Program-made: the position numbers and the translations under genes
Part shown: piece by piece, positions 54,623-61,400 of the stretch
Layout of the letters: each line of letters begins with the position of its first letter
How positions within the stretch are numbered: position 1 is the stretch's first letter
Assembly (NCBI RefSeq): GCF_015265475.1
Contig: NZ_CP054493.1
Span: 1,488,001 to 1,552,000, forward strand
Direction of reading: 5' to 3'
Length of the DNA: 64,000 nucleotides
Source: Candidatus Sulfurimonas marisnigri
GTDB lineage: Bacteria > Campylobacterota > Campylobacteria > Campylobacterales > Sulfurimonadaceae
The notes under the pieces: generated by a model
The model's input: the letters and a program-made list of their open reading frames with translations, nothing else
What the model was told of the DNA's origin: nothing
The model's database searches: none

Positions 54623-54633
54623 AAAAACAACTC

Positions 54634-54656
54634 ATTCCACCTAGCAAAGGTGGAAT
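54634..54656 (-). terminator. Rho-independent terminator of nifHDK
   Basis: Perfect arms ATTCCACCT (54634-54642) and AGGTGGAAT (54648-54656) around AGCAA, followed on the minus strand by a seven-T run (54622-54628, complement). It lies 15 bases past the nifK stop and is the clearest intrinsic terminator in the window. Confidence 0.85.
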
Positions 54657-54670
54657 AAGAAAGGAAAAAA

Positions 54671-56218
54671 CTATCTTACAGAATCAAAGAAATAATCAGT
54701 TTTTCCAGTATCTTTAGTCTCTTCATCAAGATGATCAAGAATAGAGTTTGTAATCCAAGTTAATAGATTTAACGCACCCTTATAACCGCTAATAGAATAT
54801 CTATGTAGGTGATGTCTATCAAAGATAGGGAAACCAATACGGATTAGTGGTGTATTTGTATCTCTATAAAGCTCTTTACCATAAACATTACCAATCATAA
54901 AGTCAACCGGCTCAGTAAACAGTAGACTTCTTAAGTGCCATAAATCTTTACCTGGCCAAATTTGACATTCATTAGCCCAGTCAGACTTGTCAACGATTGC
55001 TTGCATATCTGCTTCCCAACCCTTTTTAGGAGCGTTGTTACAAAGAATATGAGTTGGAATACCACCCATTTCTACTATAAATGAAACAAGACCTAGTAAA
55101 AAGTCAGGGTCACCATAGATTGCAAACTTTTTACCATGCATGTACGGGTAAGAATCTTGCATTGCATCAACAAGTTGAGCACGTTGAAGCTTTAACTCAT
55201 CACTAACTTCTTTACCAGTTAACTCTGCTAATTTCACTACAAAAGCATCAGTTCCAGATAAACCGATTGGATTACAAGTTTCATATCCTTGCTTCCATTT
55301 GTTTTTAATAGTCTTAGAAGTTTGTATAGTTGAATACTTCTGTAAAGATATAGTTGAACTAGCATTGATAGCTGTTCTTGCTTCTTCTAAAGTTGTACCA
55401 CCAGCATACAGTTCATACTCACCAGCACCAGTATTCCACTGATCTTCATGGTCACCAATCATAACGATTTTATCGCTAAATGATGCAGCTATCTCTTTTA
55501 CTTCTTTTAATGAACCAAGGTATGGTTCAAATCCAGGGATAATATTAATTCTCTCTTCATCAAGTACTTTTTCAGATTTTGGAGGATTTAACTGCTCTAA
55601 AATCGCTTTAATCATGTTGTCATAACCAGTAATATGGCTACCAACAAAAGATGGAGTATGTGCATAAGTTACAGCAGTATTATCTAGCTCACCCTCAGCA
55701 TCATCAATTGCACCTTGAACAAAAGCATTCAAGTCATCACCAATAACTTCTGCCATACATGTAGTACTAACAGCAATCATTTCAGGTTTATACATAGCGT
55801 TACAATTTCGTAAGCCATCTTTCATATTTGCAAGTCCACCAAAAACAGCTGATGATTCACTCATACTATCTGATACACATGGAGTTGGCTCTTTAAAGTG
55901 TCTTGTAAAATATGTTCTAAAGTAAGAGACACAACCGTGAGATCCATGAACATAAGGCATAGTGTTCTCAAAACCTAGAGCAGCCATTACAGCACCTAGA
56001 GGTTGACAAGCTTTAGCAGGGTTAACAGTAATTGCTTCTCTACTTAAGTTCTTTTCTCTATAGTCCCAAGACTTTGTCCACTCAGCGATTTCTTCTACTT
56101 TAGCAGGGTTCACTGAACCCATGTTACTTTCAAACTCTTGTTTATTTTTAAAAACTTCTTGATACTCTTCTTTTAAAAATAGTTTCTGTCCGTTTACAAT
56201 ATTTTCTACGTCTTGCAT
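54671..56218 (-). CDS. nifK: Mo-nitrogenase MoFe protein beta chain
   Basis: The N-terminal PAKACQPLGAVMAALGFEN and YVHGSHGCVSYFRTYFTRHF blocks include the P-cluster Cys residues, followed by DSMSESSAVFGGLANM. The length of 515 residues is normal. NifK pairs with NifD to form the MoFe protein. It starts one base after the nifD stop and ends the nifH-x-D-K operon before a strong terminator. Confidence 0.98.
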   Translation of the reverse strand: MQDVENIVNGQKLFLKEEYQEVFKNKQEFESNMGSVNPAKVEEIAEWTKSWDYREKNLSREAITVNPAKACQPLGAVMAALGFENTMPYVHGSHGCVSYFRTYFTRHFKEPTPCVSDSMSESSAVFGGLANMKDGLRNCNAMYKPEMIAVSTTCMAEVIGDDLNAFVQGAIDDAEGELDNTAVTYAHTPSFVGSHITGYDNMIKAILEQLNPPKSEKVLDEERINIIPGFEPYLGSLKEVKEIAASFSDKIVMIGDHEDQWNTGAGEYELYAGGTTLEEARTAINASSTISLQKYSTIQTSKTIKNKWKQGYETCNPIGLSGTDAFVVKLAELTGKEVSDELKLQRAQLVDAMQDSYPYMHGKKFAIYGDPDFLLGLVSFIVEMGGIPTHILCNNAPKKGWEADMQAIVDKSDWANECQIWPGKDLWHLRSLLFTEPVDFMIGNVYGKELYRDTNTPLIRIGFPIFDRHHLHRYSISGYKGALNLLTWITNSILDHLDEETKDTGKTDYFFDSVR

Positions 56219-56219
56219 A

Positions 56220-57683
56220 TTAAGCTCCTACTTCTTGTTTGTCCCATGGTGCTTTAGTATGAGACCAAACTGGTGAATTCATAGCTAAATCCATGTCTTT
56301 AGCAAAAATTGCGAATGCATCATAACCATGGTATGGTCCTGAATAATCCCAAGAGTGCATCTGTCTAAATGGTAATCCCATTTTTTGGAATACATACTTT
56401 TCTTTAACACCAGCAGCAACTAAATCTGGTCTTAATTTTTTAACAAATTGCTCTAACTCATACTCATTTGCATCATCATAAATAAGTGTACTTCTGCTTA
56501 AGTCTTCTTTTGTTCTTTTGTAATCATCACCATGACCAAACTCATAACCAGTACCAATAATCTCCATACCTAAGTCTTCATAAGCGCCAATAACGTGACG
56601 AGGTCTTAACCCACCAATATAAAGCATTACTTTTTTGCCTTCAAGTTTTGACTTATATTTAGCAATAACTTCATCTGTCATTTTTGTATACTTAGCGATT
56701 ACAGCTTCAGTATTTGCTACAATCTCACCACCAAAAAACTCAGCAATTTTTCTTAAACTTGCAGTCGTATTACTTGGACCAAAAAAGTTGTATTCCATCC
56801 AAGGAATCTCAAACTCTTGTTCCATGTGACGAGAGATATAGTTCATAGAACGGTAACAATGAAGTAAGTTTAGTTTTGACTTTGGAGCGATTGCCATCTC
56901 TTTATAAGTAGCATCACCAGTCCACTGAGCGATAACTCTTAGACCCATCTCTTCAAGTAAGATTCTTGTTGCCCAAGCATCTCCACCAATATTATAATCA
57001 CCAATGATAGCAACATCATATGGAGTTGATTGAAAATCTGATCTTGCACTTGTATCAGTCATAACTTCATCACGTATAGCGTCATTTGCAAGGTGATGAC
57101 CAAGAGACTGAGAAACCCCACGGAAACCTTCACATGAAACAGCGATAGTTGGTTTTGAACTCTCAGATTTATGCTTTTTAGCAACTGCTTGGATATCATC
57201 TCCAATTAGACCAATTGGACACTCTGACTGAATAGATATACCGTTATTTAGTGGAAATAATTCATCAATCTCACTAAGAGCTTTTTTAAGTCTTGTATCT
57301 CCACCAAATACAATATCTTTTTCACTAAAATCAGTTGAAAAGTTCATTGTTCCAAATGTATCTATACCTGTAGTACCTGTATAGTAATTTCTTCTACCGC
57401 CACGAGAATATTGACCACAGCCAATAGGTCCATGAGAGATATGAATCATATCTTTAATCGGTCCCCAAACAACACCTTTAGAACCAGCATAAGCACAACC
57501 ACGTTGACTCATTACACCTGGTACGGTTTGTTTATTACTTCTTGTAGTGTCACAAGCACCCTTAACACCTTCTGGTGAATCAACACCTAAATGTTTTGCT
57601 CTACTTTTTGCAGCTTTCGCAGGATAAACTTCTAGTACTTCTTTTATCGCTTCAAGCTGTAGTTCTTCTAACATTTCACTCAT
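56220..57683 (-). CDS. nifD: Mo-nitrogenase MoFe protein alpha chain
   Basis: [20 protein letters not shown] and [18 protein letters not shown] carry the P-cluster ligands. The FeMo-co region has [26 protein letters not shown] and the His ligand in [19 protein letters not shown]. The start is ATG 57683, preceded by a strong AAAGGAG; a longer ATG at 57704 would sit inside the ribosome-site region. The residues match Mo-type, not V- or Fe-only nitrogenase. Confidence 0.97.
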
Positions 57684-57709
57684 AATTTCTCCTTTGAGGG
57701 TCAAGTAGC

Positions 57710-58063
57710 TTACGCTACTTTAACTCTATATAGATTCATATCATCTAGTTTTTTACATAACTCTTTAGTAACTTCACCATCTACTGATTTAGAGATTTCA
57801 CTAATTTGATATTTATTAGTGTAATAAATCATCTTAAATTCACCCTCAGCTTCAGTATTTGTAAAGTAATCAACAAATGCAGTATGAGCAAAAGTTCCCG
57901 CTGGAACTGTTAGCTCTTCTAACTTAGCACCTTCTCTAGTCTCACTTGTCAATGTAACAGTTTTACCTGATGCATCAATACCTTCATTTACTTTTTCTAT
58001 TACCTTGTCAAAAGACACATCGTTTCCTTCACTTGCTGGAAAATGATAACCACATATAAACAT
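57710..58063 (-). CDS. Hypothetical protein between nifH and nifD
   Basis: A 117-residue mixed alpha/beta protein that opens [20 protein letters not shown]. It has Cys residues only at about 4 and 102 and no known motif. In methanogens two PII-like proteins sit between nifH and nifD; this one lacks the PII pattern and cannot be one of them. The tight spacing to both structural genes suggests equal expression with nitrogenase, so it may be an assembly or regulatory factor. Confidence 0.65.
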
Positions 58064-58109
58064 AATAATTCCTTTTTAATTTTCTTATTTTTATTTTTTA
58101 TAAAGAAAC

Positions 58110-59054
<945 letters not shown>

Positions 59055-59062
59055 CTAATAAC

Positions 59063-59082
59063 ATTACATATAGTGTTCCTTA
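59063..59082 (-). promoter_or_regulatory. Sigma-54-like promoter of nifH
   Basis: Minus-strand reading TAAGGAACACTATATGTAAT, with GG at 59079-59078 and GT ten bases further. The core of 17 bases is identical to the element upstream of the first ferredoxin. It lies about 42 bases before the nifH ATG. Confidence 0.75.
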
Positions 59083-59164
59083 GACAAAAATATTCGTTTA
59101 TAAATTTGTAAATTTCGCACAAAACCCTATTTAAAGGGCTTTAAAGATATTTTAGTAAGAAATT

Positions 59165-59180
59165 TGTGTATTTTTAGAAA
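59165..59180 (-). promoter_or_regulatory. Possible imperfect NifA site upstream of nifH
   Basis: TGT-N10-AAA differs from the TGT-N10-ACA consensus at one base. Its centre is about 93 bases upstream of the nifH promoter GG, the same distance as the exact site upstream of the ferredoxin gene. Weak on its own. Confidence 0.35.
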
Positions 59181-59260
59181 GTGAATTTGGGAAAAAGAAG
59201 TTTACATTTTTGAATAATTGCTATAACAAAAATGTTTTTTATATTGGTATTACTCTTATT

Positions 59261-59590: not shown

Positions 59591-59952
59591 TTTAAAAGTA
59601 TCCTCTTCAACCACAAAGGAGGATTGTCTTTCATTAGTTTTTGTATTGATTGCAAAACTTCTTCTATTTTCTCATCTTCTTTTGATGACTTCATAGGAAA
59701 AGAGCCTGAGAGTTTCACCATGCTTGCTGCTTTTGGGCCTATTTTAGTTACATAGACTATATCACTACCATCAACACACATGATTTTATACTCTAGCTTA
59801 TCAGCTTCTTGCTCATACTTTAGTGATGAGTCAACTTCATTTATAAGTTCATAGTTCTCTTCATTAACACCATATATATAAAATTTTTCACACCAGCCAA
59901 AGTGCTCATTTACATGTAAGCCATCTTTTGAGGCAAAAGCTATCTTAATCAT
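59587..59952 (-). CDS. nifX: NifX-type cofactor-binding protein
   Basis: The protein opens IKIAFASKDGLHVNEHFGWC, the standard start of the NifX/NafY/NifB-C domain that binds NifB-co or FeMo-co precursors. VYVTKIGPKAASMVKLSGSF is the second conserved strand. A tail of about 25 residues follows (LMKDNPPLWLKRILLK). It overlaps the Sel1-NifU gene upstream by 4 bases and nifQ downstream by 4. It probably carries cofactor intermediates between NifB and NifEN. Confidence 0.88.
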   Translation of the reverse strand: MIKIAFASKDGLHVNEHFGWCEKFYIYGVNEENYELINEVDSSLKYEQEADKLEYKIMCVDGSDIVYVTKIGPKAASMVKLSGSFPMKSSKEDEKIEEVLQSIQKLMKDNPPLWLKRILLK

Positions 59953-60686
59953 ATTACATATACCAAAATATTTTCATCTATAACTTTTGATAAAGTATCA
60001 TAAATTAAACCATAAGTACTAGTTGAGGCCATTGAACAACCGGCACAATTACCTTGGTAAGCAAGTCTAATCTCAATATCTGGTTTATTTACATAATCTA
60101 GAATCATAATATTTCCACCGTCTTTTACAAGTATGGGTCTAATATATCTCTCAATTGCATCGTTTAAAATTTCAAGCTGTTTTTCATCAGTGCTAGTTCT
60201 ATATGTTATATTTAACTTAGCCCAGAGATTTGGCTTAGTGTCTAAACCACCTACCATTGATATAGCCATTGGATGGTTAGATTTTGCAGCACTTAAGATA
60301 CACTCAAAACCCTCTTTTACAGACTCTTCATTTGTTCTATCTTTTAAAAGAAGGTAACCAAGTCTAAAGTTAGCATTTTGATGGTTTTTTGCTACTGCTT
60401 TTCTAAAGTAAGCTATACTTTTTTCCATATCTTCTTCAACGCCGAGTTTTGTCTGATAGATTAATGCTAGATTATAGTTTGCAGAGTCATTGTCATATTC
60501 ACTTGCTTTTAAAAACCACTCTCTAGCTCTTGTGAAGTCTTTATCAACACCATCACCTTTTAGGTACATCAAACCAATATTTGTCATCGCTTGGTCGTTT
60601 TTTTTACTAGATTCTTCTTCCCAAATAGTGTAGGCTTTATCAAAATCTTTTTCTCTATATGCTTGTAATGCTTCTTTGTGACTCAT
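59949..60686 (-). CDS. Sel1-repeat protein fused to a NifU C-terminal-like domain
   Basis: The first 160 residues are Sel1/TPR repeats (MTNIGLMYLKGDGVDKDFTR, NYNLALIYQTKLGVEEDMEK, FRLGYLLLKDR). The last 75 match the Nfu/NifU C-terminal Fe-S scaffold: IRPILVKDGGNIMILDYV and QGNCAGCSMASTSTYG with the CxxC pair. I place the start at ATG 60686 (MSHKEALQAY), preceded by AAAAAAGGA; a longer ATG at 60728 overlaps cowN. Such a fusion may bring Fe-S cluster delivery to a protein partner. Confidence 0.85.
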   Translation of the reverse strand: MSHKEALQAYREKDFDKAYTIWEEESSKKNDQAMTNIGLMYLKGDGVDKDFTRAREWFLKASEYDNDSANYNLALIYQTKLGVEEDMEKSIAYFRKAVAKNHQNANFRLGYLLLKDRTNEESVKEGFECILSAAKSNHPMAISMVGGLDTKPNLWAKLNITYRTSTDEKQLEILNDAIERYIRPILVKDGGNIMILDYVNKPDIEIRLAYQGNCAGCSMASTSTYGLIYDTLSKVIDENILVYVI

Positions 60687-60699
60687 AATTAATCCTTTT

Positions 60700-61008
60700 T
60701 TAGCAACACTCGAACTCAACCTGTTCAAGTACTTCTATACCTGCTTCGAAATCGTACTCTTCAAAAAGATCAGATATGTAAAATACATTTGCGCAGACTA
60801 GGTAGAGAGTGTCTTTATTACCATCTTTTTCAAAAACTTCTCTATAGTTTTGTGGTATTTTATTCATAAAGTTATTCCAAAGTCTGTTTTTTGACTCTGG
60901 TTTTAACTTAAATAGTTCAATCATAGCGTCTATGACTAGTGCTGAATTTTCATAACAATCAATATTGTCAAAAGTTATATACCTATCCTTTTCTGAACTC
61001 ATGCCCAT
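60700..61008 (-). CDS. cowN: CowN: CO-protection protein of nitrogenase
   Basis: The 102 residues match CowN along their length: KDRYITFDNIDCYENSALV near the start, NRLWNNFMNKIP, TLYLVCANVFYISDLFEEYD, and the typical VLEQVEFECC end. CowN lets nitrogenase work in the presence of carbon monoxide. An MGMSSE or MSSE start is possible. It overlaps the NifX-like gene by one base. Confidence 0.88.
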   Translation of the reverse strand: MGMSSEKDRYITFDNIDCYENSALVIDAMIELFKLKPESKNRLWNNFMNKIPQNYREVFEKDGNKDTLYLVCANVFYISDLFEEYDFEAGIEVLEQVEFECC

Positions 61009-61400
61009 TATGCATTCTCACAACCACATCTACATGTACTACCATCACCACCCGGATCAAGTTTGTCTTTATAGTTGCTTTTATTAACTATCTGAAGTTT
61101 TTTGTTTAAAAAACCTTTTAATATTTCATCAATAGACATCTTTGTATGTTCTACGCTGTAAACACTCATCTCATTTTTTGCAAATGATTTGTAAACTCCT
61201 TCACCCATATGGTAAAAGATTGTTGATGTAGCACCATTTTCTTTTAAAAATCCCGCACTCTTTGGACCTTCACCTTCTGCTTCATTTTTTATAACTACCA
61301 AGTCACCACACGTAGTGTCTAGTATCCCAAAAAATGGGGCTTTTCCATAAAGTTCTGATATTGTCGATGACTCTTGCTTATCTAAAGGTATAGCTAACAT
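61008..61400 (-). CDS. NifX/NifB-C-domain protein with a Cys-rich tail
   Basis: A NifX-family fold: MLAIPLDKQESSTISELYGK, FFGILDTTCGDLVVIKNEA, GATSTIFYHMGEGVYKSFAK. The end carries TCRCGCENA, a Cys-rich tail that NifX lacks. It is a third NifX-type domain in the window, with NifB and the nifX gene. It is the first gene of the operon with its own sigma-54-like element. It probably handles a FeMo-co intermediate; the tail could bind an Fe-S cluster. Confidence 0.8.
   Translation of the reverse strand: MLAIPLDKQESSTISELYGKAPFFGILDTTCGDLVVIKNEAEGEGPKSAGFLKENGATSTIFYHMGEGVYKSFAKNEMSVYSVEHTKMSIDEILKGFLNKKLQIVNKSNYKDKLDPGGDGSTCRCGCENA

Follow-up and report, generated by a model that had tools for sequence, protein, structure and literature searches.

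Few enzymes have been studied as intensively as nitrogenase, whose minimal gene set steers efforts to transfer it into other organisms. NifW and NifZ are known helpers of its MoFe protein, NifDK. The closest described systems by gene position are the P-II proteins NifI1 and NifI2: passages in the respective papers place pairs of glnB-like/nifI genes in the nifH–nifD gap, for Bacteroidetes in one paper (PMC4356463) and for clostridia and methanogens in two others (PMC4246453; PMC3961195). We compared the same gap outside Campylobacterota in six plasmid records. In four of them it measures only 35–102 bp (Methylococcus, Pseudanabaena, Sinorhizobium and Chlorohelix, the last with the gene after the gap annotated simply as ‘nitrogenase component 1’), in a Nitratidesulfovibrio record two P-II genes fill it, and in a Paraburkholderia record, which stops after nifH, it lies beyond the end. 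An earlier note on the DNA analysed here had stated that nifH usually adjoins nifD unless P-II-like regulators come between them, which agrees with five of these records and with the passages in PMC4356463 and PMC4246453.

In the window (the whole 64,000-nucleotide stretch that was analysed), the gap is occupied by a single open reading frame encoding 117 residues, hereafter the ORF (57710..58063, minus strand), which starts with ATG behind the ribosome-binding site AAAAAGGA. It is flanked on the same strand by nifH (58110..59021; Fer4_NifH PF00142, 398 bits), nifD (56220..57683; TIGR01282, 805 bits against a cut-off of 653.55) and nifK (54671..56218; TIGR01286, 738 bits against a cut-off of 427.3), encoding the Fe protein and the alpha and beta chains of the MoFe protein. 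These curated models identify the neighbours as molybdenum nitrogenase genes and, together with the position of the ORF, bear out the earlier note’s description of an uncharacterised gene in the nifH–nifD gap. The ATG of nifD at 57683 is preceded by AAAGGAG, and the TTG at 57704 chosen by the automated call is probably too early. The nifD ribosome-binding site falls in the 26-bp ORF–nifD spacer (57684..57709, minus strand), and the 46-bp nifH–ORF spacer (58064..58109, minus strand) is AT-rich and lacks a strong hairpin. A consensus scan of the minus strand found a terminator-like hairpin directly 3′ of nifK (54631..54659), which is the likely operon end, two overlapping weak sites within the nifH coding sequence, and none in either spacer. 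From this layout nifH–ORF–nifD–nifK is apparently one operon, and the ORF is likely co-transcribed with the nif genes; the layout does not extend to the stoichiometric expression that the earlier note read from the gene’s location.

Across 97 rows, which include duplicate genomes and two broken clusters, the median spacers are 76 bp for nifH–ORF and 31 bp for ORF–nifD. Their median folding energies are −8.0 and −3.1 kcal/mol, respectively, a comparison made without a shuffled control and in which the nifH–ORF spacer is the longer. A more strongly folding nifH–ORF spacer would suit expression of the ORF at the level of NifDK rather than NifH; the window’s own 46-bp spacer departs from this median trend in having no such hairpin. 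Upstream of nifH, the nifQ–nifH spacer (59022–59260, minus strand) contains no sigma-54 (−24/−12) site at up to two mismatches, and nif control here may therefore depart from the NifA/RpoN pattern. The same pattern (TGGCAC-N5-TTGCW, up to two mismatches) matches 30 times in the window against 24.3 expected.

The ORF belongs to a conserved protein family that has no name in any family library searched. Members have no match over a curated cut-off in Pfam, NCBIfam, PHROGs or PADLOC, in keeping with the earlier note’s view that no known family accounts for the gene, and sequence searches of the PDB returned nothing better than E 0.12. The note was also right that the protein is not P-II-like: a P-II identity is ruled out by profile, with no PF00543 row in Pfam at E ≤ 1, whereas the two P-II proteins encoded in another Campylobacterota nif cluster (G073, locus L097) reach 63.8 and 79 bits. 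Mso1_Sec1_bdg, the top Pfam row across the family (E 0.00012, in 2 of 33 members), was taken as chance. Judging by titles and abstract starts, none of the literature retrieved on the gene and its setting appeared to describe the ORF, in a search whose coverage excluded most subscription journals.

We quantified the distribution in 397 Campylobacterota genomes, scoring nifD by the TIGR01282 cut-off and the ORF by its family profile. Each was found in 73 genomes, and 72 of the 73 genomes with an over-cut-off nifD carry the ORF. In all 72 it lies on the same contig and strand as nifD and precedes the nifD match by 54–366 bp, with a median of 74 bp; in the sole exception (G452) the nifD match stops 89 bp from a contig end. 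Among the other 324 genomes the ORF occurs in one (G296), within a damaged nif cluster with no over-cut-off nifD. The nifH, nifD, nifK and nifE-like genes of that cluster (L098, 6832–11754) have broken reading frames, owing either to decay or to sequencing error. Because nifD lies directly downstream in 72 of the 73 profile-positive genomes, the link is far beyond chance (Fisher’s test on 72/1/1/323, p about 2e-77, for genomes that are related and not independent). The same 72/73 shows the strict genetic linkage to nifD that would mark a NifDK-binding accessory protein.

Two further samples gave a similar picture. The ORF was present in 18 of 99 relatives (the window’s own genome included), and a scan of genome contigs yielded 51 loci; in these 69 loci, some of which represent the same genome twice, nifD is present in 69 and nifH in 67, the other two (L018 and L067) starting near a contig end. 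The titles of the 51 contigs name Campylobacterota groups, save one ‘Proteobacteria’ and two plain ‘bacterium’, in a scan that relied on exact peptides of one sequence, recovered no locus below 56% identity and would miss even the subfamily, 38–45% identical, that occurs among the relatives. Searches with tblastn at E ≤ 0.1 found no ORF match on plasmids, even though a nifH-like gene is present in 246 of the plasmid records, and viral contigs likewise held no match. These results describe essentially Campylobacterota. The earlier note, which had called the gene inserted and proposed a search of other nifH–nifD gaps, was correct about the extra gene and understated its standing: the family recurs in other nif loci, and nifH–ORF–nifD is the standard layout among sampled Campylobacterota, not a one-genome oddity.

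To relate the evolution of the ORF to that of its neighbours, we compared its distances over 30 genomes with those of nifD, nifH and the species marker gyrB, obtaining Pearson correlations of 0.893, 0.834 and 0.421, respectively. The partial correlation given gyrB is 0.869 with nifD and 0.813 with nifH (0/999 permutations as high in either case), and that with gyrB is −0.047 given nifD (764/999) and 0.294 given nifH (0/999). Genomes of the window’s genus at gyrB distances of 0.12–0.18 from genome G000 fall into two classes, one with ORF distances of 0.15–0.25 and nifD distances of 0.11–0.16, and the other with 1.04–1.14 and 0.33–0.36. Because genomes so close in gyrB split into matched ORF and nifD classes, the ORF travels with the nif cluster, and the pattern indicates that whole clusters, ORF included, are exchanged between species of this genus. 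Comparison of G000 with G016, G040, G055, G260, G362 and G424 displays two clearly different nif types, with the ORF type differing along with the nif type, in genomes that are close in gyrB. The ORF evolves faster than its neighbours, with a mean distance of 0.822 against 0.220 for nifD and 0.165 for nifH. Its median dN/dS is 0.193 (125 of 133 pairs, the rest being saturated), compared with 0.090 for nifD, 0.086 for nifH and 0.097 for gyrB (115 of 133 pairs); the ratios are rough, with synonymous distances near 1, and point clearly to purifying selection on the ORF.

Conservation among 82 distinct family sequences (113–125 residues) is concentrated in two segments. In residues 1–14, M1, F2, G5, F8, P9 and G13 are found in 82/82, A10 and N14 in 81/82 and H7 in 75/82; in residues 81–95, N83, Y85, Q86 and D95 are found in 82/82, S91 in 81/82, K92 in 80/82 and E89 in 79/82. 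An AlphaFold2 model of the ORF product from 33 sequences (mean pLDDT 92.2, pTM 0.86) has four main helices and a small sheet. The model of another member, which shares 37% identity (pLDDT 88.9, pTM 0.85), is not fully independent of the first, as their alignments share many rows. Foldseek against the PDB placed DapD of P. aeruginosa (3r5a-d), a tetrahydrodipicolinate N-succinyltransferase of lysine biosynthesis, at ranks 1–10 for both models, with best E values of 2.3e-3 and 1.6e-2 and none below 0.001. The top VIA-align match of both was C. jejuni DapD (2rij), at Z 5.5 and rmsd 4.3 over 100 residues for the first model and Z 6.8 and rmsd 3.8 over 106 residues for the second (chain residues 1–130), against Z 4.0 and 2.7 for the best unrelated rows, on a scale where values below 8 may reflect merely a common arrangement. 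The matched region is the N-terminal distal subdomain, which a passage in PMC3281039 describes as an antiparallel sheet of four strands flanked on either face by helices, and the predicted ORF fold likely resembles it.

The similarity to DapD is confined to this predicted fold. None of 33 family members has a row for the corresponding domain (THDPS_N, PF14790) at E ≤ 0.1. Sequence homology was also sought by profile–profile comparison with DapD N-termini from 20 of 27 loci (7 were left out because a longer neighbouring ORF had been picked) and was not found: the probabilities of 0.13 and 0.24 were equalled or exceeded by 48 of 100 column-shuffled controls. The left-handed beta-helix catalytic domain and the C-terminal domain of DapD are absent from the 117-residue model, whereas the ORF has an additional conserved segment, residues 1–14, that lies outside the structural alignments, and its gene always sits beside nifD. 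NafY, VnfG and FeSII folds were not among the fold-search matches listed, which proves nothing, and a viral fold library gave no match at E ≤ 0.001.

Because the ORF is inherited with NifDK, resembles a non-catalytic domain and has two conserved segments, we favour a protein dedicated to binding NifDK, where it would serve assembly, stability or control. Our best reading, with a probability of roughly 45%, is that it is a small non-catalytic protein of Campylobacterota, restricted to molybdenum nitrogenase, that most likely binds NifDK and stabilises or completes it. The product is probably a dedicated helper of nitrogenase; we infer that it is non-enzymatic and that it binds NifDK, acting in assembly or stability. 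Made from a nifH–ORF–nifD–nifK transcript, it would bind the MoFe protein, possibly with NifH as well, through the near-invariant N-terminal segment and the conserved helix 81–95, and once bound would stabilise NifDK or aid its completion. The position right before nifD, with a contig end as the single miss, distances that follow nifD given gyrB, the low dN/dS, the conserved segments and the short median nifD spacer all support this reading. Against it, the ORF evolves faster than a tightly locked core subunit should, and its link to nifD would suit a regulator or protective factor equally. Furthermore, all 26 of the ORF-bearing genomes that were tested have NifW and NifZ genes distinct from the ORF, leaving no helper role visibly vacant, and the ORF would therefore be an addition to the usual helpers. 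Like NifW, NifZ, NifQ, NifX and CowN, the ORF product is small, dedicated to nif and encoded near nif genes, but it matches none of their models, and the window carries separate CowN, NifQ and NifX-like proteins.

Within the apparent core operon, the sampled diazotrophs of a whole phylum thus share an additional, strictly linked gene that is nameless in the searched family libraries. The gene is a marker for Campylobacterota diazotrophs and, given the predicted fold, a testable case of enzyme domain reuse in nitrogen fixation. If its product does partner NifDK, Campylobacterota nitrogenase handled without it would be incomplete.

A possible though unlikely alternative is a post-translational switch with the role of NifI1/NifI2, which would bind NifDK or NifH upon a change in nitrogen or energy status and stop turnover. 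The ORF fills the slot that P-II pairs hold in the groups cited above, in the Nitratidesulfovibrio plasmid and, within the same phylum, in G073. That genome lacks the ORF, and its nifD scores 645 bits, just under the cut-off of 653.55. Its locus (L097, 6240–9463), in which nifH, two P-II genes and a 544-residue NifD follow one another, is unlike the other nif loci seen, and the cluster was possibly acquired from another lineage. The ORF product is also similar in size to the L097 P-II proteins (117 against 125 and 123 residues), but it has no P-II profile match or recognised ligand-binding motif and is encoded by a single gene where the P-II genes are paired; shared position, moreover, need not mean shared role. 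No P-II structure was seen among the fold-search matches listed for both models, where a missing row excludes nothing. DraT gave no match in 78 genomes, which would leave room for another switch, except that the search controls were silent too, so its absence is not implied.

Rather unlikely is a bolder scenario drawing on both the predicted fold and the position, in which a DapD domain was freed in a Campylobacterota ancestor and recruited, in the slot of the P-II genes, as an obligatory nitrogenase subunit or activity regulator, making the enzyme NifDK plus a third protein.

We consider it quite unlikely that the ORF protects nitrogenase against oxygen, CO or sulfide stress, akin to FeSII or CowN elsewhere. 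By contig titles its hosts often belong to lineages that we take to be microaerophilic or sulfidic, and the nif region of the window includes a cowN gene (94.4 bits); the same gene means that CowN is already present. The family also lacks an Fe–S cysteine pattern: C103 occurs in 80/82 sequences and C4 in just 60/82, with leucine in its place in 21, which makes C4 an unlikely anchor for an essential metal site.

A role in folding or maturing NifH, in place of NifM, is improbable. The ORF adjoins nifH, its distances follow those of nifH given gyrB, and NifM is over its cut-off in 0 of 26 genomes. However, sub-cut-off NifM matches, presumably generic prolyl isomerases, occur in 25 of the 26 genomes and in 7 of 14 control genomes, and with 25 of 26 holding such matches there may be a divergent NifM among them. 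NifM is absent from many diazotrophs, and the ORF is tied to nifD by its spacer on that side, which is usually the shorter one. That the ORF derives from DapD and still serves lysine/diaminopimelate metabolism, tying it to nitrogen supply, is very improbable: the DapD subdomain is the top fold match of both models, but no sequence homology was found, the protein lacks the active-site domains, its gene is linked to nif alone, and an ordinary DapD with its N-terminal domain is kept in 27 of 27 genomes checked.

Two other features of the window’s nif region were observed on the minus strand. The cowN gene (60700–61008) adjoins a gene for a second Nitro_FeMo-Co domain protein (61008–61400; 40.9 bits), and the genes for the NifX-like protein and NifQ lie downstream of this pair. 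A 259-residue protein (59949–60728) combines Sel1 repeats (PF08238, 65.8 bits) with a C-terminal NifU-like domain (PF01106, 49.3 bits) and has relatives, identified by tblastn, in several other Campylobacterota nif clusters.
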